From IMG/VR virus record IMGVR_UViG_3300028553_000054, positions 1 through 44,323 of that record: 44,323 nucleotides of DNA, one strand, 5' to 3'. The DNA comes from a virus. The translations under genes were made by a program, and so were the position numbers. The notes under the pieces were generated by a model that worked only from the letters and a program-made list of their open reading frames with translations, made no database searches and had not been told where the DNA came from. This document shows positions 1,689 to 44,323 of the stretch, piece after piece (the stretch's first letter is position 1; every line of letters starts with the position of its first letter).

Positions 1689-2250
1689 AACGTATATAAT
1701 ATTTATCTTGTTTTTTAAAACCAAATTGCTGCATTATCTCTCTATGGTAAGGTTCTTTTTGTATTCTCATTTGATTCATTACTAAATGTAATTGTTCCAT
1801 ATAAGAACCTGTAGGTATTATAATTTTGTAATGAGAAAAAGTTTTAATTATATCAGAATACATCTGTCTTATAAGTTTTCTAATACTTGTTCTAGGTCGT
1901 TTTCTCAAAACACCTGAAGTTTTTACACCTCCTATTATAATTTCTTTTTCGTAAATGTGTAACATAACAATACCTTTTTCTAATTTCCAATTTTCTTCAC
2001 AGGTAACCCACTGTTCTTCATTTTTATTTTTTATAGTATCTTCGTAAATATCAGGATCAGTTTCTTTTGTTCCCCACCAAATAAGAAAATGGGCTTGTCT
2101 ATCACATATTCTAGGACAATATGGATAACTTATAGGTAAAGTGTCCATTACAACATCAACGTTTGATATATCTATTTTAACTGGCGATGTAGTTTCTTTG
2201 TAGTCGTACATCTTCGATATATCTGTGCGTAAGTTTATAGACACACTCAT
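1678..2250 (-). CDS. Unknown protein of the radical-SAM island
   Basis: I do not recognise this 190-aa protein. The C-terminal half (PRTSIRKLIRQMYSDIIKTF, then an ending like FGFKKQDKYYIRYAN) weakly recalls the end of GNAT-type acyltransferases, but no acetyl-CoA loop can be identified. It has a CxxxC pair (CPRICD) near residue 45. The longest reading overlaps the upstream radical-SAM gene by 74 bp; internal ATGs at 2211 and 2148 would reduce or remove this overlap, so the start is uncertain. Being locked between a radical-SAM gene and an oxygenase, it probably belongs to the same pathway. Confidence 0.6.
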   Translation of the reverse strand: MSVSINLRTDISKMYDYKETTSPVKIDISNVDVVMDTLPISYPYCPRICDRQAHFLIWWGTKETDPDIYEDTIKNKNEEQWVTCEENWKLEKGIVMLHIYEKEIIIGGVKTSGVLRKRPRTSIRKLIRQMYSDIIKTFSHYKIIIPTGSYMEQLHLVMNQMRIQKEPYHREIMQQFGFKKQDKYYIRYAN

Positions 2251-3229
2251 CTAACTCCTCTCTATATCTGTAATCGTGATTCATAAAACAACCTAATGTA
2301 CATCTATCTAAAAACTCACAAGAAACACAATTATATTTTTCTAAAAACTTATTTTCAATAATACTATTGTCCATACGTTTAATAGGCGATTTGTACATAC
2401 TTAAAGACTTTTTATCTTGTACTAAATTACCACACATACATAAAGTACCATCAGCTAAAACCAACTTACTCACTCTACAAGAAGAATAGTTTTTTTTATT
2501 AAAAATCCAATCTTTTACAGGATGCACGTGAGGGTAATTATCTACACAATGTTTAAAAAATTTTAATAGTAATTCATCACTAGGCATATTAAACTTGGCG
2601 TGTTCATCTGGCATATAGTAATCAAAGTAAATGTATTTACCACTGTTATAAAGATAATCAAAATATTCATCACCGTTATTTAAATAATGTTCTATGTTAG
2701 GCTTAGTTAATAAACAAGAGAAACAAGTAACTCTATCACCAAAATAATCTACATTACTTTTAAATATTTCAAACTGTATTTTATTGAAACGGCCTCTTGG
2801 GTCGTATGATGTTGTAAGTCTTGCAGGAATATCGTTATCTTTAGAGTATTTTAATAATTCTTCTATTTGGTCAATACCTTTTTTATCAGTAACTAAGTTA
2901 GATACCCAATTCAATGAAAATAACTTATTATACTTTTTTGCTATTTGGGATATACCTAATGATAACTGCTTATAAGCTTCGTTTATTTCTTTTGTGTAAA
3001 TGCTTGGTGCAAATACCTCACCACCCATTATGTTTAAAGTGATTTTATTTTTAAATTCTTTACTTATAAGTTTTTCAATAGGTTCTAATTTGTTTAAAAC
3101 TGTGTCTATGCCTATTTTATCTTGGTGATTTTGCCAACAGAAAGCACAACTTAAATTACAAAACTCAAATAAATGTATGGTGTATTCTTGCTCAGGATCT
3201 CTTTTAGGATCAATCAAAAATTCACGCAT
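2177..3229 (-). CDS. Radical SAM/SPASM peptide-modifying enzyme (rSAM-B)
   Basis: A 350-aa radical-SAM enzyme with a SPASM-type C-terminal domain. The SAM-cluster motif is CNLSCAFC (residues 24-31), and NIMGGEVF (about residues 66-73) supplies the GGE SAM-binding motif. The C-terminal auxiliary-cluster cysteines appear as CRVSKLVLADGTLCMC followed by CVSCEFLDRCTLGC. This layout is that of sactisynthases, anSMEs and other ribosomal-peptide maturases, which use extra 4Fe-4S clusters to modify a peptide side chain. It begins 7 nt after the upstream unknown gene. The substrate is inferred, the enzyme class is clear. Confidence 0.9.
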   Translation of the reverse strand: MREFLIDPKRDPEQEYTIHLFEFCNLSCAFCWQNHQDKIGIDTVLNKLEPIEKLISKEFKNKITLNIMGGEVFAPSIYTKEINEAYKQLSLGISQIAKKYNKLFSLNWVSNLVTDKKGIDQIEELLKYSKDNDIPARLTTSYDPRGRFNKIQFEIFKSNVDYFGDRVTCFSCLLTKPNIEHYLNNGDEYFDYLYNSGKYIYFDYYMPDEHAKFNMPSDELLLKFFKHCVDNYPHVHPVKDWIFNKKNYSSCRVSKLVLADGTLCMCGNLVQDKKSLSMYKSPIKRMDNSIIENKFLEKYNCVSCEFLDRCTLGCFMNHDYRYREELDECVYKLTHRYIEDVRLQRNYIAS

Positions 3230-3236
3230 TTTAATA

Positions 3237-4340
3237 TTATAATAATCTAAACTTAGTAAGCGCCTCTATATTATTATCTCTCTTTAAGTTTAATATGTGA
3301 TGTAAAAAAACATAATTTACATTTTGAAAATCAAATGTTGAAACTAAACAAGTATCAAAAGGATTTTGAACTACAAAATTTAAAACCGTATTCATTTCTG
3401 TTTCAGTAATAGTATCTTTAGCAGCTAGTTCTAAATAATCAAAAGCGCTAAACAATGTTCTATTAATTTCCATTTCTTCAACATTTAAATAAATATTTTT
3501 TAATAAGTTTCTTAATCCATTTATTTTTTCTTGTGATAAATTTTCTATATTGCAAACGTCATATATGCCTGTTTTTTCATTTTGTTTCCATATTGTTTCA
3601 TCTGCATAATATTGTAAAGAAGAAACACCTGAAATAGGATTATTAGAATTTAAATTTAAATCATTTTCTGTAAATCCTAATGTTGTTTGAAAATTTTTAT
3701 TTAATAAGTTTAATAATATCATTTCTCTATTATCAGTGAAAGCTTCTTTTAACCATCTTCTTAAAAATAAATGTAATACACTTTTTAATGAGTTAGTGTA
3801 ATTAGTAGAATTACTAAAATAATCAGCTAATAAAAACTCATATGAATAATTTAAATTCAAATTTTTAATAGAATTTCTATTTTCGTCTGTTATCGTTTCT
3901 GAATTAAAGCTTTCAGTTAAATCTCCTAGTCCTTCTTTTAAAGTATCTAATTTTAATGGTACAACAGATTGCAGTCGAGTATTTTGAGTTATTTTTTCTT
4001 TGTAAACCGTTAGATTAACAAAACGGTTAAAACTTTCTAAATTTATAGATGGTAATATTGTTTTAATCCATTTAACTAAAAACTTAATATAGTTTGTTTT
4101 GTCGCAATAAATTATAATTTTTTTATTAGAAGTTTGCCCATAAGAAGATAATTCGGTTATTAAATTTGTGAAATTTAAATCATCTAAATTTCTACCATAT
4201 TTTATTAATTTTCCTTGTATAACTTTATCTAAAAAATCCGATATGTTCACTCCGTTTATATTTGAAATAACAACTCGGTCAAAATTTAATTCTATCTTAT
4301 CGTCAAGTTCTAAATATGTTTTATTAAATAGATGCAACAT
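3237..4340 (-). CDS. Unknown 367-aa protein of the radical-SAM island
   Basis: No family recognised. The protein is rich in Asn, Leu and Lys and looks soluble and mostly helical after an N-terminal beta-rich stretch with a hydrophobic IIIYCD strand (about residues 75-81). There are only three cysteines and no obvious catalytic motif. It overlaps the upstream unknown gene by 17 bp and ends 7 bp before rSAM-B, so it is embedded in the modification operon. Plausible roles are substrate recognition or scaffolding for the radical-SAM enzymes, but nothing in the sequence proves that. Confidence 0.65.
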   Translation of the reverse strand: MLHLFNKTYLELDDKIELNFDRVVISNINGVNISDFLDKVIQGKLIKYGRNLDDLNFTNLITELSSYGQTSNKKIIIYCDKTNYIKFLVKWIKTILPSINLESFNRFVNLTVYKEKITQNTRLQSVVPLKLDTLKEGLGDLTESFNSETITDENRNSIKNLNLNYSYEFLLADYFSNSTNYTNSLKSVLHLFLRRWLKEAFTDNREMILLNLLNKNFQTTLGFTENDLNLNSNNPISGVSSLQYYADETIWKQNEKTGIYDVCNIENLSQEKINGLRNLLKNIYLNVEEMEINRTLFSAFDYLELAAKDTITETEMNTVLNFVVQNPFDTCLVSTFDFQNVNYVFLHHILNLKRDNNIEALTKFRLL

Positions 4341-5016
4341 TTTTTATAATTTCCTTATCTTTTATTTTAGCTTCTATATACTCTTTACCTTTTCCTTGCG
4401 TTATACCCCAAGTGAGTAAAAACATAGGATTTTTTGGTGTAGACCAAAATTCAAAAAGGTTTTTGCCTCTAAACATATAATCATCAAAATATCGTGTATA
4501 AAATTTTATGTTATTATTTAGTTTATTAAAAAAAAGATAAAACCTTTCTTGTTTTAGTAAACTTACAAAATTTACACCTTCTAAACTATTTGTGTCATCT
4601 GCTGGAAATGTTTTAGCATAATCTTTAAATTCGTCAGAATTGACAATGTACATATTAAATATACTTAAGCTATCTAATTTATCAGACCATTTAGAAATTA
4701 TATCAGTATTTTCATTTATAAAATTCTTGTAATTCTCAGTTTTTAAAATATTTTTATATTCTAATAATATATCAATAATAATATTTTCTAATGACTCTAT
4801 ATTAACCAAAGTAACACTATGTAAATATTCTTTAACTAATTCTAAATCTGGTTCTTTTATATCAGCAGGTAAATCTAAATTACTTAAATAAGTTAATAAT
4901 TTTTTACCTTTTAACTCGCTATTCTTATAGTCAATTAAATAAAAAACTTCTTTATCCGTGAAATGTTTTTTTAAATTTTCTATTGATATTGGTGCTATTG
5001 TTTCAATTATGTTCAT
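4324..5016 (-). CDS. Unknown 230-aa protein coupled to the CHxS-tailed protein
   Basis: No family recognised. An upstream in-frame start exists at 5067, but the ATG at 5016 (product MNIIETIAPISIENLKKH) forms a TAATG overlap with the stop of the CHxS-tailed gene, so I take this as the real start. The product is soluble, acidic/Lys-rich and probably helical, without cysteine. Tight coupling directly after the candidate substrate gene suggests stoichiometric production with it, as expected for a chaperone, recognition protein or immunity-type partner. That role is inference only. Confidence 0.65.
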   Translation of the reverse strand: MNIIETIAPISIENLKKHFTDKEVFYLIDYKNSELKGKKLLTYLSNLDLPADIKEPDLELVKEYLHSVTLVNIESLENIIIDILLEYKNILKTENYKNFINENTDIISKWSDKLDSLSIFNMYIVNSDEFKDYAKTFPADDTNSLEGVNFVSLLKQERFYLFFNKLNNNIKFYTRYFDDYMFRGKNLFEFWSTPKNPMFLLTWGITQGKGKEYIEAKIKDKEIIKNVASI

Positions 5017-5588
5017 TATCTTCTTCCTCTCGAACTGTGGCAAGAACTGTGGCAACTTGCGTGACACACATCTATTTGGGTTGTTACTGTTGTGGTTCTA
5101 ATTGCAGTATAAGCTGCTGTTAAATTTGTAAAATATGTTTCTAAATTTGTGTCATCAACATTCTGACCTGTGGTTACATTAGCATTTGCAACGGCACCAA
5201 TGGCTGCTCTATTTGCGGTATCTAAATGGGCAACTGCTGTTTGATCAAAAATAATTCCTGGTGTTGGCCTTGAACCTGTATTTCCTCCACCACCTGTTAC
5301 GTTTAATATTGCTCTTTGTTGTCTAATATTTGTATATAAAGCAGTTTCAGTTTCTAAAACTGATCTTATGGTAGCAGCGGTGATTGTATTGCCCGTTGTG
5401 CCTATAGTGGTTCCTGTTGCAGTGATACTTGTTCCTGATATAGTTCCTGCGTATGTAGCGCCTGGCATTTCTGGAAAAGGTAGATTATTTGTACCCCATA
5501 CTATTCCTGCATTTGCAGCTGCTAATACAAAATCTGCAAATCTATCAACTATATTTTGCGGCGTAACTGGATTAGTTAATGTTACCAT
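5016..5588 (-). CDS. Fibre-like protein with C-terminal CHxS repeats; candidate modified substrate
   Basis: A 190-aa protein with a Gly/Thr/Ala-rich body typical of phage tail-fibre proteins (for example SGTSITATGTTIGTTG) and an abrupt change at the end: the last 16 residues are CHASCHSSCHSSRGRR, three Cys-His-x-Ser units followed by a basic tail. All cysteines of the protein are in this tail. It lies between a radical-SAM/SPASM gene (17-bp overlap) and an unknown gene (TAATG overlap). Low-complexity Cys/His/Ser repeats beside radical-SAM/SPASM enzymes are the usual mark of a RiPP-type core peptide. Here the core would be the tip of a virion fibre rather than a secreted peptide. I know no named family for it. 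Confidence 0.75.
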   Translation of the reverse strand: MVTLTNPVTPQNIVDRFADFVLAAANAGIVWGTNNLPFPEMPGATYAGTISGTSITATGTTIGTTGNTITAATIRSVLETETALYTNIRQQRAILNVTGGGGNTGSRPTPGIIFDQTAVAHLDTANRAAIGAVANANVTTGQNVDDTNLETYFTNLTAAYTAIRTTTVTTQIDVCHASCHSSCHSSRGRR

Positions 5589-6609
5589 ATTTAATTCCCA
5601 ATTTTAATTCTTTCATCAAACTTTTAGGTGCACCACATATATCTCCTTGCCAAGCAAGTTGGTGGCAATCACCTCCACAGAACTCAAAAACTTCACAAGA
5701 AAAACATATAGGGTTTCTTGCACGCTCACAAGCGATGTTTTCTATTCTAATGGGACTATTTATAACAGTTAATATATCGTCGGTTATATGTCCAAATTGA
5801 AACTCAGGAGCTGAATTAGGGCATCCTGATATGGTTCCGTCAGCATTTAACGTGAATATTTTTTGTTCACAATCTCTACAAAAAGTGCCACCCTTTAAAA
5901 AACCTGTTTCAAATTTACTGTAAATAACCTCTAAAGTATCATTATCAAACCAACTTCTACATTCATATTCTTTTGACTGATGGTGCATTTTTAAAAACCA
6001 TTTATCTTGTTCTATATTATCAGGAAATATTTCAGGATGTAATTTTGCATTACCGTTACCTGTCAATCTTTCAAAAGACACTTCTTGTACACCTAATTCT
6101 TTAATCCACTTTAATAGTGTTATAGGTTCTATATTGATAGTGTCTTTTGTTACACTTATAAACAATCTAATAGTAACACCTTTTAATAGTAAATCTTTTA
6201 CATTTTTTTCCCATAAATTATATTGTTTATCATTTTCAAATCTTATTTTAGGATCCCAACTTGTGCCCATACGATTATTTAATGGCCCTTTTATAAAATC
6301 GTAATGTTCTTGTTTTAATTTAAATACTAAATTTGACGTAATACCGAAGGTTCTATTTTTCCACAAATCTTTACACTCATCATATACTTTGTTCATATGT
6401 GATACAGGAGCTAAAAAAGGTTCGCCACCGTGAAACTCAAAATGTATAGAATCTTTTTCACTATTAAAATGATGTCTAAATTTTTTTATAAAATCAATGG
6501 TTTGTATAGGATTAAAATAAATTTTAGCACCATTTATGCCGTTTGTAAAACAATGTTTGCAATTTAATTGGCAAGTTTCTGTTGTCTTTATATAAAACAT
6601 CCAATTCAT
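5572..6609 (-). CDS. Radical SAM/SPASM enzyme (rSAM-A), adjacent to the candidate substrate
   Basis: A 345-aa radical-SAM/SPASM enzyme and the best-preserved of the set. The SAM-cluster motif is CQLNCKHC (residues 13-20 from the chosen start), with the SAM-binding motif HGGEPF at about 60-65. The SPASM region is complete in appearance: CRDCEQKIFTLNADGTISGC and then CFSCEVFEFCGGDC with a last Cys in DICGAP. FTLNADGTISGCPN is the hallmark turn of SPASM domains such as those of anSMEs. The ATG at 6609 gives a TAATG overlap with the cupin gene; a longer start at 6636 is possible. It overlaps the CHxS-tailed gene by 17 bp, pointing to that protein as substrate. Confidence 0.92.
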   Translation of the reverse strand: MNWMFYIKTTETCQLNCKHCFTNGINGAKIYFNPIQTIDFIKKFRHHFNSEKDSIHFEFHGGEPFLAPVSHMNKVYDECKDLWKNRTFGITSNLVFKLKQEHYDFIKGPLNNRMGTSWDPKIRFENDKQYNLWEKNVKDLLLKGVTIRLFISVTKDTINIEPITLLKWIKELGVQEVSFERLTGNGNAKLHPEIFPDNIEQDKWFLKMHHQSKEYECRSWFDNDTLEVIYSKFETGFLKGGTFCRDCEQKIFTLNADGTISGCPNSAPEFQFGHITDDILTVINSPIRIENIACERARNPICFSCEVFEFCGGDCHQLAWQGDICGAPKSLMKELKLGIKYGNIN

Positions 6610-7061
6610 TATTTGTATCCTATACTTAATGCCCACGTGAAAGGCAAACTTTCAACTTTATGTTTTGCACCTTTAGGTATTGATATTGATTGACCTTCGT
6701 TTACTATTATGGGATAATTTTCTACAAAAACTTTTTTACTACCTTTTATAACACATAATAGAACGTTTATATCGTCTGTGTGTTCAGGAAAAGAAAATCC
6801 GCCTAGTTGATTATAAAATAGATGCACATTTTTCATTTTAAAATTCAAATCATAATCTTTAAATAATTGTAAATGATAATTATTATCTTCTAATCCTTCA
6901 ACTTTTATATGAGGAATGTTTTTATAATTTTTTACCCAATTACTATAAGTTATTTCATTCTTAACTTTATAGTCTTTGCCTTCTTTATCTATATAAATTA
7001 TTTGATTATTTTCGTATCTTGTATAAGATATTAATTCATCATTTAGTGCTTCAATTAACAT
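6609..7061 (-). CDS. Cupin/JmjC-like protein, possible Fe(II)-dependent hydroxylase
   Basis: A 150-aa single-domain cupin. The core shows FPEHTDDINVLLCVIKGSK (an HxD pair), GQSISIPKGAKHKV (distal His) and a closing strand WALSIGYK. The HxD...H arrangement is that of Fe(II)/2OG JmjC-type oxygenases, but the protein is short, so a metal-binding cupin without hydroxylase activity is also possible. It is the first gene after the tail-fibre gene and is coupled by TAATG to rSAM-A, so it opens the modification island. A hairpin abuts its start codon. Confidence 0.7.
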   Translation of the reverse strand: MLIEALNDELISYTRYENNQIIYIDKEGKDYKVKNEITYSNWVKNYKNIPHIKVEGLEDNNYHLQLFKDYDLNFKMKNVHLFYNQLGGFSFPEHTDDINVLLCVIKGSKKVFVENYPIIVNEGQSISIPKGAKHKVESLPFTWALSIGYK

Positions 7062-41036: not shown

Positions 41037-41640
41037 TGACAAATACCTCTTTCATTATTAATTTAATTGCTGTTCTATTATATTTAACAAACTGTTCATA
41101 TTTAGCTAATCTTTTGGAGTGGACTGGCCAAACAACCTGTTCAATAATCTGTTTATCCCAAGATTTACTATAAGATAAAATTTGGTTAAATACAACAGCA
41201 CTCTCGTAGGATATCTTTTTTGATAGAACCAATTGAAAAAATCTAGGATGTTGTCCACCAAAAACGCTAAAACCATTATCAAAAGAAAGGCGCTTAGCAT
41301 TAAAATCATTAACAATATGGACACAATCGTTTCGAAAATAATACTCAAAAGATTCATTACGCTTCTTCCAATCTGTAAAAACATCATTACCGTCCTGTCC
41401 TGTTAAACTCTTTACCCATTTGTTACTATCAAATAAAAAATTACTAACAAAAAAGCCCAATATATCATTCTGACTATATCTGGTGCTAAGTTTGTGAAAA
41501 AAATATCTATCATTTCTTTTAGTAAAGGTATCTAGTTTACAATTAACTTTTCCTTCATATTTATGATAATCATAACTAGCTGTGGTAAAATGTAACTTAA
41601 CAGCAAGATATGTTTTAAATACTTCAAACCCTCCATACAT
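41029..41640 (-). CDS. 59: Replicative helicase loader gp59
   Basis: A 203-aa protein (T4 gp59 is 217 aa). The sequence shows FEVFKTYLAVKLHFTTASYD and YHKYEGKV, then RYFFHKLSTRYSQNDILGFF, which lines up with the T4 pattern (YKLYLMIKQH...YDVIKYN...KYFFQKLSEKY). gp59 binds fork DNA and gp32 and loads the gp41 helicase. It lies between gp33 and gp32 as in T4. The gap to gp33 is 1 bp. Confidence 0.9.
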   Translation of the reverse strand: MYGGFEVFKTYLAVKLHFTTASYDYHKYEGKVNCKLDTFTKRNDRYFFHKLSTRYSQNDILGFFVSNFLFDSNKWVKSLTGQDGNDVFTDWKKRNESFEYYFRNDCVHIVNDFNAKRLSFDNGFSVFGGQHPRFFQLVLSKKISYESAVVFNQILSYSKSWDKQIIEQVVWPVHSKRLAKYEQFVKYNRTAIKLIMKEVFVNG

Positions 41641-41641
41641 A

Positions 41642-41854
41642 TTACACCGGCAATTGGCCTGTTTTTGGTATATAATTTAAATTCTGTGCTTCTATTGTAA
41701 TCTTATCTTTTAATGGTTTACTGATAAGAGGTGCAACTGTACCTGGATCTATTTCATTTTCTTCACAATATTTTAACACGGCGTCCATATACGTAATGCC
41801 TTTTTTAGCCTGTACAATCTTTTCTATTTCTAATGAAAATTCTTTTGAGTTCAT
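41642..41854 (-). CDS. 33: Late transcription coactivator gp33
   Basis: A 70-aa protein resembling the short gp33 of marine T4-like phages: EFSLEIEKIVQAKKGITYMD followed by AVLKYCEENEIDPGTVAPLI and SKPLKDKITIEAQNLNYI, ending LPV. In T4, gp33 joins RNA polymerase to the sliding clamp and enables late transcription at TATAAATA promoters, many of which occur in this window. The gp33-gp59-gp32 order is conserved. No Shine-Dalgarno; the promoter at 41861-41889 points to a leaderless mRNA. Confidence 0.85.
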   Translation of the reverse strand: MNSKEFSLEIEKIVQAKKGITYMDAVLKYCEENEIDPGTVAPLISKPLKDKITIEAQNLNYIPKTGQLPV

Positions 41855-41860
41855 AGTATA

Positions 41861-41889
41861 ATTATATCACGATTCAATCGTGTTGTCAA
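41861..41889 (-). promoter_or_regulatory. Perfect sigma70 promoter with palindromic operator-like spacer
   Basis: TTGACA (41884-41889), a 17-bp spacer and TATAAT (41861-41866) are full consensus. The spacer contains the inverted repeat CACGATT-G-AATCGTG (41868-41882), positioned where a repressor would block polymerase. The gp33 ATG begins 6 nt after the -10, so the transcript should be leaderless. Confidence 0.85.
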
Positions 41890-41893
41890 TGGC

Positions 41894-42052
41894 CTAATCG
41901 TCTTTGAAGTGGTCGTCATCAAACGTTACGCAATTACTTTCGATATTATGTTTCTTGCGTCTATCTTCTACCGATAAGGTAGGGTCTGGTTCGTCCAGAC
42001 CCTTTTTGAAAAACGATAGCCATTTAAAAGAAAATAGTTCTCGTAATATCAT
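41894..42052 (-). CDS. Small unknown protein
   Basis: A 52-aa ORF starting MILRELFSFKWLSFFKKGLD and ending FDDDHFKDD. The central DEPDPTLSVEDRRKKHNIES region is charged. AAGG precedes the ATG. Its 5' half contains a perfect hairpin that, on the opposite strand, looks like an intrinsic terminator. Function unknown. Confidence 0.6.
   Translation of the reverse strand: MILRELFSFKWLSFFKKGLDEPDPTLSVEDRRKKHNIESNCVTFDDDHFKDD
41982..42007 (+). terminator. Intrinsic terminator reading on the plus strand inside a minus-strand gene
   Basis: GGGTCTGG and CCAGACCC form a perfect 8-bp stem with loop TTCGT, followed by TTTTT on the plus strand. No plus-strand gene is present here, so it may stop antisense transcripts before they reach later minus-strand genes. 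It is also part of a coding sequence on the minus strand. Confidence 0.6.
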
Positions 42053-42056
42053 AACC

Positions 42057-42227
42057 TTATATTGGTAAAAAACTACTGATGGAAGTAATCACTATTAAAA
42101 CAAATAATCCAATGGCAATTATACCTGATAGAACCATATATAAAGGTTCATATTCATTCCAATGTTTTTTAATTTGTTTTGAGGTATTACTTACCCATTT
42201 ATTTTCACAAATATTATACGGTATCAT
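42057..42227 (-). CDS. Small single-pass membrane protein
   Basis: A 56-aa ORF with a polar N-terminal half (MIPYNICENKWVSNTSKQIK) and one membrane helix (MVLSGIIAIGLFVLIVITSI) near the end. Its ATG overlaps the stop of the upstream gene as TAATG, so it is translationally coupled. Function unknown. Confidence 0.65.
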   Translation of the reverse strand: MIPYNICENKWVSNTSKQIKKHWNEYEPLYMVLSGIIAIGLFVLIVITSISSFLPI

Positions 42228-42565
42228 TACTTCTTAATTCCTAAATTTGGAAAAAAAGCTTTGACTGTATTTTGATATGCTTCAGCATAAGGCTTTGCTA
42301 AGTCTTGTGCTTTCGTTATATTTTCTTGTGCAGTCTTTGTAAAGTCATTATTCGTTACAAACTCATTAAATTGTTGAGCCATACCAATAATGTCTTGTGG
42401 TAATACTGTAGGAGCTTTAAACTCTTGTACTACTTTATCACCTTCTTTTCTGATGTTGTACTCGTACTCTTGTATTTGTGCTTGATAATTAAACTCAACT
42501 AATTCTTTAGCTAAGCCTAATAAGTCTGAACGGATTTCATATCCGTTTTTTGATGTTGTTGCCAT
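42227..42565 (-). CDS. Conserved-looking helical protein of unknown function
   Basis: A 112-aa soluble, helical protein, starting MATTSKNGYEIRSDLLGLAK and with FTKTAQENITKAQDLAKPYA near the end, a segment with some phasin-like character. GGAG precedes the ATG at the right distance, and a late promoter lies 35 nt upstream, so this is probably a well-expressed late protein. Neither a virion nor a regulatory role can be decided. Confidence 0.7.
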   Translation of the reverse strand: MATTSKNGYEIRSDLLGLAKELVEFNYQAQIQEYEYNIRKEGDKVVQEFKAPTVLPQDIIGMAQQFNEFVTNNDFTKTAQENITKAQDLAKPYAEAYQNTVKAFFPNLGIKK

Positions 42566-42599
42566 ATTTTCTCCTTTGTGTGTGTGTTTATAGCGTTAT

Positions 42600-42607
42600 T
42601 ATTTATA
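42600..42607 (-). promoter_or_regulatory. T4-type late promoter
   Basis: TATAAATA on the minus strand directly beyond a hairpin (42608-42630) and 34 nt before the ATG at 42565, which has a good Shine-Dalgarno. Confidence 0.7.
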
Positions 42608-42630
42608 CAGGAGGGATTTACTCCCTCCTG
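42608..42630 (-). terminator. Hairpin between small genes, abutting a late promoter
   Basis: CAGGAGGGA pairs with TCCCTCCTG (9 bp) around a 5-nt loop. It follows the small Pro/Lys-rich membrane protein gene (stop at 42643). On the minus strand no T-run follows, while on the plus strand GTTTTC does. It probably separates the upstream transcript from the late transcript starting next to it. Confidence 0.55.
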
Positions 42631-42642
42631 GTTTTCAATTAA

Positions 42643-42816
42643 CTACTTCTTCTTTTCGTCTTTTTTAGCTGGTTCAGCAGGTTTTGCTGGAGCAACTTGT
42701 TGTGTAGTAGCAGGTTTCGCTGGTTCTACTTTTTTACTAGGTTTTAATAAAAAGTAACCACCAATTGCTATTACCACTACAACAGCGGCGATAATTAGAT
42801 TTTTTGTAGTAAACAT
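42643..42816 (-). CDS. Small membrane-anchored Pro/Ala/Lys-rich protein
   Basis: A 57-aa protein with an N-terminal membrane helix (NLIIAAVVVVIAIGGYFLL) and a periplasm- or cytoplasm-exposed tail of PAKPA-type repeats ending KKDEKKK, reminiscent of miniature TonB/spanin-like linkers. AAGGAG precedes the ATG. Expression should come from the sigma70 promoter at 42890-42918. Function unknown. Confidence 0.7.
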   Translation of the reverse strand: MFTTKNLIIAAVVVVIAIGGYFLLKPSKKVEPAKPATTQQVAPAKPAEPAKKDEKKK

Positions 42817-42850
42817 TATTTACTCCTTGTTTAGTTAATATAAGGGACAG

Positions 42851-42871
42851 GTCTTAGTTTTAGGCTAAGAC
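42851..42871 (-). promoter_or_regulatory. 5'UTR hairpin
   Basis: GTCTTAG and CTAAGAC form a 7-bp stem with a 7-nt loop in the leader between the sigma70 promoter and the ribosome binding site of the 57-aa membrane protein gene. It may stabilise or regulate this mRNA. Confidence 0.45.
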
Positions 42872-42889
42872 TAGTCATCTCTATTAATT

Positions 42890-42918
42890 AATATACACTA
42901 ATTTGAAGTATTTGTCAA
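42890..42918 (-). promoter_or_regulatory. Sigma70-type promoter
   Basis: TTGACA (42913-42918), 17-bp spacer, TATATT (42890-42895). The transcript would carry a leader of about 65 nt with a hairpin and a Shine-Dalgarno before the ATG at 42816. Confidence 0.75.
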
Positions 42919-42922
42919 CCAG

Positions 42923-43117
42923 TTAGATAACTGATTTTTCTCTTTTGATATGGCCTAACACTGTACCCTTATGTTCACCTTCTTTTATGGTGTAACCTGA
43001 CGTACCATTACCATTTATTTCGACTTCTTTTCTACTTCTCAATAGAATGTCGTTCTTTTCTTTTACTTGTTTATCTGTATAGTTTTTAGATATTAAGTCT
43101 TTTAATCGTTCTATCAT
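42923..43117 (-). CDS. Small unknown protein behind a late promoter
   Basis: A 64-aa product from the ATG at 43117 (MIERLKDLISKNYTDKQVKE...). An upstream in-frame start at 43144 would read through the late promoter and is less likely. It is basic, with a GTSGYTIKEGEHKGTVLGHI segment suggesting a small beta fold. The ATG lies 5 nt after TATAAATA without Shine-Dalgarno. Confidence 0.6.
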   Translation of the reverse strand: MIERLKDLISKNYTDKQVKEKNDILLRSRKEVEINGNGTSGYTIKEGEHKGTVLGHIKREKSVI

Positions 43118-43122
43118 AATAT

Positions 43123-43130
43123 TATTTATA
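43123..43130 (-). promoter_or_regulatory. T4-type late promoter 5 nt before an ATG
   Basis: TATAAATA on the minus strand, then ATATT, then the ATG at 43117. It lies just downstream of the tmRNA gene. Confidence 0.6.
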
Positions 43131-43149
43131 TGCAATACCGTCATTGGAG

Positions 43150-43385
43150 ACCTGTTATTTTTGCATACCTCTTACGGCCTACTTCTGTTGCCACGTGTAG
43201 GCCAACGCCGTTACCTATAATTAGGCAGCAAGAGCATAACTTTCGTTAGCATCTGTGATTTGACATTACGTTGTCAGCGATTTAACTCCAAATAGTTTTA
43301 GCTAGAAGTCGAAACTATATCCACCCCTTATATTTCATTGTATAAATGGTGGAGTGGCTGGGTACCGCCCCCAGGTCCTATCTAG
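43150..43385 (-). ncRNA. ssrA: Circularly permuted (two-piece) tmRNA
   Basis: On the minus strand the acceptor piece comes first: T-arm CTGGG-GGCGGTA-CCCAG, then CCACTCC, A and CCA (3' end at 43347). After a 19-nt intervening segment (43328-43346) the coding piece begins GGGGTGG (43321-43327), then ATATAGTTTCGAC, a tmRNA hallmark. GGGGTGG pairs over all 7 positions with CCACTCC, with a G-U wobble at pair 3, the alanine identity signal. The tag frame (43221-43250) reads ANESYALAA then TAA. A 7-bp hairpin (43176-43203) follows; the outer ends are approximate. TCTAG and CTAGA in the two pieces could pair as helix P2. The gene starts right after the stop of a secreted-protein gene. It would rescue stalled ribosomes and tag proteins for degradation. 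Confidence 0.88.
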
Positions 43386-43757
43386 TTATTGTCTATTCTT
43401 CCTCATTAAATATCTTCTTAATTCATTACCTTGTTTTAAATCAAAAGTTCTATAATTTATACAAGAAGTATCAGGTTCTTCTGGCGAATGTAATATAACT
43501 ATTGTTTCTGTATTTTTTTTGTTTATATAATATTCTACTACAAATACAGGTTGACCTTTATCATTTTGACCCTCTCTGCCTATACTTATATTTACTAACT
43601 CAAAATTAAAATCTTTTAAAAATTGATTTACAGTGAGTCGATTACCACATAATACAGGTATTTCTTCAAGTGTTAATGAGTATTTTTCTAATATATTTAC
43701 ATTAGCATAACTAATGTTTGAGTATAATAAAAGTCCTATTAATATCTTTTTAAACAC
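43386..43757 (-). CDS. Secreted/periplasmic protein of unknown function
   Basis: A 123-aa protein with a clear signal peptide (MFKKILIGLLLYSNISYANV, cleavage probably after SYA). The mature part has two cysteines (PVLCGN and DTSCIN) that could form a disulfide. It is read from a GTG preceded by a hairpin. It ends directly at the tmRNA, with which it may be co-transcribed. No family recognised; a periplasmic function in the host is likely. Confidence 0.65.
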   Translation of the reverse strand: MFKKILIGLLLYSNISYANVNILEKYSLTLEEIPVLCGNRLTVNQFLKDFNFELVNISIGREGQNDKGQPVFVVEYYINKKNTETIVILHSPEEPDTSCINYRTFDLKQGNELRRYLMRKNRQ

Positions 43758-43758
43758 T

Positions 43759-43780
43759 GGCCTATTTCTGACAATAGGTC
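43759..43780 (-). promoter_or_regulatory. Hairpin before the secreted-protein gene
   Basis: GGCCTATT and AATAGGTC form an 8-bp stem (one G-U pair) around a 6-nt loop, 1 nt before the GTG start and just after the nuclease gene. It could end the upstream transcript or control the GTG start; there is no long T-run. Confidence 0.4.
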
Positions 43781-43787
43781 AATTCTC

Positions 43788-44323
43788 TTATGTATTACTA
43801 TTTGTCTTTAATTTGTTATTGAAATATTTATAAAAGTTATCTATTGATTCTAATAACTTTTTCTCATAATCAGCACGGTTTTTAATAAAACATTGTGCGA
43901 CACCATCTTCACAAGCCAGTATAACAACCAACTGTTCAATTTTTTGGCCATATAGTTCTTCATACATCATAGAATAGGCCGTTGTTTGTAGGAAGTAATT
44001 TTCAATCCAACCTTCTTCTCTTTCTTTATTGGCCGATTTAAAGTCTATGACTGATAGCTTGTCATTGTAATCTGCAACACAATCAACTTGGCCTGCCACT
44101 GTAAGTTTTTTACTATACATAATTGTTTCAAGCATTCTTACGTTGTCAATCTTATCTATATATGGTTTAATCAGTTTAAATAAACCTAATGGTAATACAT
44201 CTCTTATTGATGGTGTTTGATTTTGTAAATACTGTTCAACAAGAGTGTGCATAGCCTTACCTCGTCTAGCCGCTCTACCCATTTCCCAATTGGCAACTGA
44301 ATCACCAACTTTAGTTCTCCAGT
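43788..44323 (-). CDS. PD-(D/E)XK family nuclease, partial (start outside window)
   Basis: The open frame continues to the window edge; an internal ATG at 44282 is not the true start, since the upstream codons WRTKVGDSVANWE read as protein. The catalytic core is visible: RRGKAMHTLVEQYL (motif with the conserved His/Glu of RecB/Cas4-like nucleases), VAGQVDCVADYNDKLSVIDF (two Asp) and FKSANKE (the DxK-type Lys). Q-rich QTTAYSMMYEE follows, as in RecB-like nucleases. Such enzymes act as exonucleases in phage DNA metabolism. Likely early or middle expressed. Confidence 0.82.
   Translation of the reverse strand, partial: WRTKVGDSVANWEMGRAARRGKAMHTLVEQYLQNQTPSIRDVLPLGLFKLIKPYIDKIDNVRMLETIMYSKKLTVAGQVDCVADYNDKLSVIDFKSANKEREEGWIENYFLQTTAYSMMYEELYGQKIEQLVVILACEDGVAQCFIKNRADYEKKLLESIDNFYKYFNNKLKTNSNT

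Follow-up and report, generated by a model that had tools for sequence, protein, structure and literature searches.

tmRNA is the RNA that rescues stalled ribosomes, and the question raised by this locus is whether a phage carries a working tmRNA of its own. The DNA analysed is a virus record of 44,323 bases (the window). It very likely encodes a genuine, selected two-piece tmRNA of a SAR11-type T4-like phage, which would rescue stalled ribosomes together with the SmpB of the host.

At about 43174-43397, the minus strand carries a tmRNA gene that is complete and circularly permuted (two-piece). ARAGORN and two Rfam covariance models identify it independently. ARAGORN places a permuted tmRNA with the tag ANESYALAA at c(43130-43442). 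RF01849 (alpha_tmRNA) matches with 99.0 bits (E=5.8e-26, 43174-43450, full model 1-355) and RF04321 (tmRNA_permuted) with 91.8 bits (E=1.5e-16), both above the curated cut-offs of 50 and 47 bits, respectively. An earlier sequence-only reading, which had proposed a phage-encoded circularly permuted tmRNA and suggested a search with covariance models, is thereby borne out. Its details hold as well: the acceptor 3′ strand with the encoded CCA (CCACTCC-A-CCA) stands upstream of the 5′ strand GGGGTGG, with a 19-nt insert between them, and the two strands pair in a 7-bp acceptor stem with a G.U at pair 3. The locus it had delimited, 43150-43385, is the right one but slightly short on the 5′ side, where P2 reaches 43397. 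The tRNA-like domain consists of the acceptor stem, G3.U70, A73, and a 5-bp T stem. A G.U at the third acceptor pair is the usual alanine identity element of tmRNA. Taken from its sequence features, the gene is real and complete and is probably functional. By analogy with known two-piece tmRNAs, tRNA-processing enzymes would be expected to excise the 19-nt segment. The parts of the locus are listed in the table.

Table. Features of the tmRNA locus and its neighbors (positions in the window)
Feature	Position	Strand	Basis or remark
Permuted tmRNA gene (ssrA)	43174..43450	-	Rfam alpha_tmRNA match; ARAGORN span 43130-43442
Acceptor piece	43347..43397	-	Sequence, Rfam, helix alignment
P2 5′ strands in acceptor piece	43393-43397, 43381-43385	-	
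T arm	43358-43374	-	
Acceptor 3′ strand and encoded CCA, CCACTCC-A-CCA	43347-43357	-	
19-nt intervening segment between CCA and coding-piece 5′ end	43328..43346	-	Sequence
Coding piece, including P2 3′ strands	43176..43327	-	Sequence, helix alignment
Acceptor 5′ strand GGGGTGG	43321-43327	-	
Stem-loop in coding piece	43262-43275	-	
Tag reading frame GCT..TAA, ANESYALAA-stop	43221..43250	-	ARAGORN, sequence
3′ helix of coding piece	43176-43203	-	
PD-(D/E)XK exonuclease, conserved upstream neighbor	43788..44321	-	5′ truncated by contig end
123-aa ORF, upstream of tmRNA	43386..43757	-	Stop codon overlaps acceptor piece (P2 5′ strand)
Late-transcription coactivator, conserved downstream neighbor	41642..41854	-	Pfam PF16805

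By its gene content, the window phage is a T4-like myovirus related to SAR11 viruses, with T4-type baseplate and tail genes, a gp32-like single-stranded DNA-binding protein (SSB), a gp59 loader, and a late-transcription coactivator. SAR11 bacteria are abundant. The nearest isolates are the Pelagibacter phages Mosig and HTVC008M, for both of which HTCC1062 is the host, and the methylophage (Methylophilales phage) Melnitz. Protein identities are 67-76% to Mosig (SSB 76%, gp6 67%), 55-67% to HTVC008M, and 53% to Melnitz. A direct comparison of the window with phage records at the DNA level gave no match, sensitive mode included, because the sequences have diverged. The structural-gene half of the window additionally encodes two radical-SAM domain proteins (2177-6636), with a weak third match at 46-1113.

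The record is a metagenome-derived fragment of just 44 kb, and the tmRNA lies 1 kb from its end, which could suggest that the contig is host sequence or a chimera and the tmRNA bacterial. This is almost certainly wrong, as phage genes stand on both flanks and the order PD-(D/E)XK exonuclease, tmRNA, late-transcription coactivator is common to the window, Mosig, HTVC008M, Melnitz, and many independent contigs; the synteny with the isolates refutes it. Of 40 records searched, mostly contigs that encode the related exonuclease along with four records of named phages, 22 passed the RF04321 cut-off. The marine virus AG-345-P14 record, which PMC9004378 counted as tmRNA-bearing, gave no RF04321 match. 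Several related contigs do not have a tmRNA at this slot, so the gene is dispensable, with contig ends possibly accounting for some other absences. One related contig (L102, 4664-5575) carries a 303-aa sulfurtransferase-like ORF in its place, ahead of the small ORFs that it shares with the window; from its sequence, inspected by eye, we take this ORF to resemble rhodanese-type enzymes. The stop codon of the 123-aa ORF in the window lies inside the acceptor piece (43386-43397), and like overlaps are found in Mosig and HTVC008M, an arrangement that suggests co-transcription. On the other side of the tmRNA, the minus strand at 43100-43130 contains a string resembling a T4-type late promoter by eye, TATAAATA, which sits downstream of the tmRNA and directly upstream of an ATG.

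Whether the RNA is maintained can be read from its helices. For this purpose, 31 distinct phage tmRNAs were aligned over six helices with 33 pairs and compared with shuffled and slid controls. Pairing was found in 97.2% of the helix cells (36-46% in the slid controls), double-sided changes in 22 of the 33 pairs (shuffle mean 13.1), and the covariation score reached 0.418 versus a shuffle mean of 0.133 and at most 0.041 in the slid controls. Compensatory change is strong in the acceptor, T, P2, and 3′-piece helices, which argues that the RNA is under selection and is no decaying fragment. The acceptor and T helices are paired in all 31 sequences, and the U-G pair is invariant. The outer P2 helix, which ties both pieces together, is 100% paired with double-sided change in four of its five pairs (AATAG/CTATT to GTTAG/CTAAC and GTAAG/CTTAC), whereas the inner P2 helix is paired in only 84% of cells, alignment gaps being partly to blame. 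RNAalifold, as an independent method, also predicts the T, acceptor, pre-tag, and 3′ helices but misses P2. Upstream of the tag, the stem GACA/TGTC is present and covaries across the phage tmRNAs, and no crossing helix of at least 3 bp with convincing covariation was found there, so that only one of the two helices of a putative pseudoknot is evident. Of the P2 helix and pseudoknot that the sequence-only reading would look for in a true tmRNA, the former is present and covarying, and for the latter there is just this single stem.

The tag frame ANESYALAA-stop proposed from the letters alone is confirmed, and it ends in a hydrophobic -AA degron. Ten synonymous DNA versions encode this same peptide among the phage tmRNAs. 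Other tags in this phage group are ANNNFAMAA, ANDNNFALAA, GEDNFALAA, ANFNEYALAA, and ANDNYVPVDYALAA. A comparison with host tags, likewise suggested earlier, shows that ANESYALAA is identical to the tag of many SAR11 genomes. A degenerate pattern search found it in at least 100 Pelagibacteraceae contigs, while no genome matched 20 bases of the tag region exactly. Among 72 Pelagibacterales tmRNAs, nearly all picked without regard to tag but by score and by hand, 19 carry ANESYALAA, and the commonest tag is ANDELALAA (20). The suggested SAR11-type host therefore fits, both by this tag and by the kinship with pelagimyophages; retagging with a distinct tag is unsupported for the window phage, whose tag is of the SAR11 type. 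In-frame tandem stops after the tag (two or three, e.g. TAG TAA TAG) occur in 18 of 47 distinct phage tmRNAs (L326-L339, L386, L392, L396-L398, and kin among them) and in 0 of 173 distinct SAR11 host tmRNAs; the window tag has a single stop (TAA TTA TAG).

As neither the window nor any of the three complete isolate genomes encodes SmpB, the SmpB of the host is presumably used. From the sequence we infer that the tmRNA would be transcribed together with neighboring phage genes, that RNase P and 3′ trimming would cut the precursor at the encoded CCA and at GGGGTGG, and that the acceptor and P2 helices would hold both pieces together. The RNA would be charged with alanine via G3.U70 and, with host SmpB as its partner, may free ribosomes that have stalled on broken mRNA in the infected cell and append ANESYALAA as a signal for degradation by a host protease. 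The likeliest benefit would be that ribosomes and amino acids are kept available while host mRNA is destroyed. Rescue on degraded mRNA with amino-acid recycling is the best-supported role on these grounds and resembles the role proposed in the Melnitz study (PMC9004378). It is improbable that the phage tmRNA chiefly interferes with the host tmRNA, for instance by titrating SmpB or host AlaRS, instead of performing full trans-translation. A TLD-only tmRNA relative of mycobacteriophage DS6A does inhibit tmRNA, perhaps via SmpB titration (PMC4131195), and the lack of a phage SmpB would agree with such a decoy. However, synonymous and compensatory changes preserve the coding-piece helices as well as the tag frame with its C-terminal ALAA, and interference fits less well because a decoy would need no tag.

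Phage-encoded permuted tmRNAs in cultured relatives were previously reported. The two-piece tmRNA of Melnitz was described in 2022; the same study found permuted tmRNAs in 17 of the 47 contigs clustering with Melnitz and, among 133 unique phage tmRNAs, counted 53 in two pieces, 50 of which came from marine or aquatic phages (PMC9004378). The 2025 tmRNA database paper has 79 phage sequences (PMC11915505). The view that tmRNAs are rare in phages is accordingly not tenable for this group, as the published 17 of 47 contigs already indicate. Added here are the covariation test, the exact match to a SAR11 tag, a tmRNA gene missing from the HTVC008M annotation, and the finding that the slot is swappable. 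The small class of virus-borne ribosome-rescue RNAs thus gains well-supported members, whose covariation and conserved tag indicate that they are maintained and no accident, and an uncultured phage gains a hint at a SAR11-type host. Why a lytic phage should carry a tmRNA although its host has one is now testable in the cultured Mosig and HTVC008M.

The chromosomal alpha_tmRNA of SAR11 (Pelagibacteraceae) is permuted like that of the window and has the same tag in many genomes. The bodies of the host RNAs, in contrast, are only about 70-72% alike to the window's, the region from acceptor stem to tag differs, and RF01849 scores are mostly 190-244 bits in the hosts versus 99 in the window. The shared tag, as well as the patchy presence among relatives, would suit a recently captured host gene, a passenger without phage function brought in, for example, by imprecise recombination. 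Such a capture is very unlikely and largely refuted by host divergence, grouping, covariation, and the common slot. The best host match is about 72% over 167 nt, whereas phage relatives are 88-95% alike (95% for the nearest), the covariation within phages is strong, and the slot is common to the isolates. The phage sequences also group apart on the tree, where a single branch (SH-aLRT 95) separates them from 89 SAR11 rows; the tree warrants caution, as its branches are long and its deeper nodes weakly supported. The simplest reading is that the gene was acquired long ago from a SAR11-like alphaproteobacterium and has since been inherited within phages. A wider proposal is tentative and may well be wrong, namely that the phage tmRNAs of this group form an old lineage of single origin in which RNA structure and a host-type tag are selected and whose slot, next to the late-transcription coactivator, is swappable. 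If true, they would amount to a ribosome rescue system tuned to the phage and separate from that of the host.

The cultured phages carry the closest known systems. The tmRNA of Mosig EXVC030M (Mosig_00148, annotated SsrA) is permuted like that of the window and occupies the same slot, with a PD-(D/E)XK nuclease and a small ORF before it and a late-transcription accessory gene after it, but its body has diverged and its tag is GEDNFALAA instead of ANESYALAA. A glutamine riboswitch is reported beside the Mosig and Melnitz tmRNAs, whereas a permissive Rfam scan of 41500-44323 found no glnA-type riboswitch beside that of the window. In Melnitz the tmRNA (gene 86, annotated SsrA) is permuted and its neighborhood is as in the window, with the differences being a much longer insert and the tag ANDNYVPVDYALAA. 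HTVC008M has a tmRNA in the same slot (NC_020484.1 145161-145370, RF04321 90.6 bits), which is unannotated in its record, lies in the gap after I899_gp194, and encodes the tag ANFNEYALAA in place of ANESYALAA.
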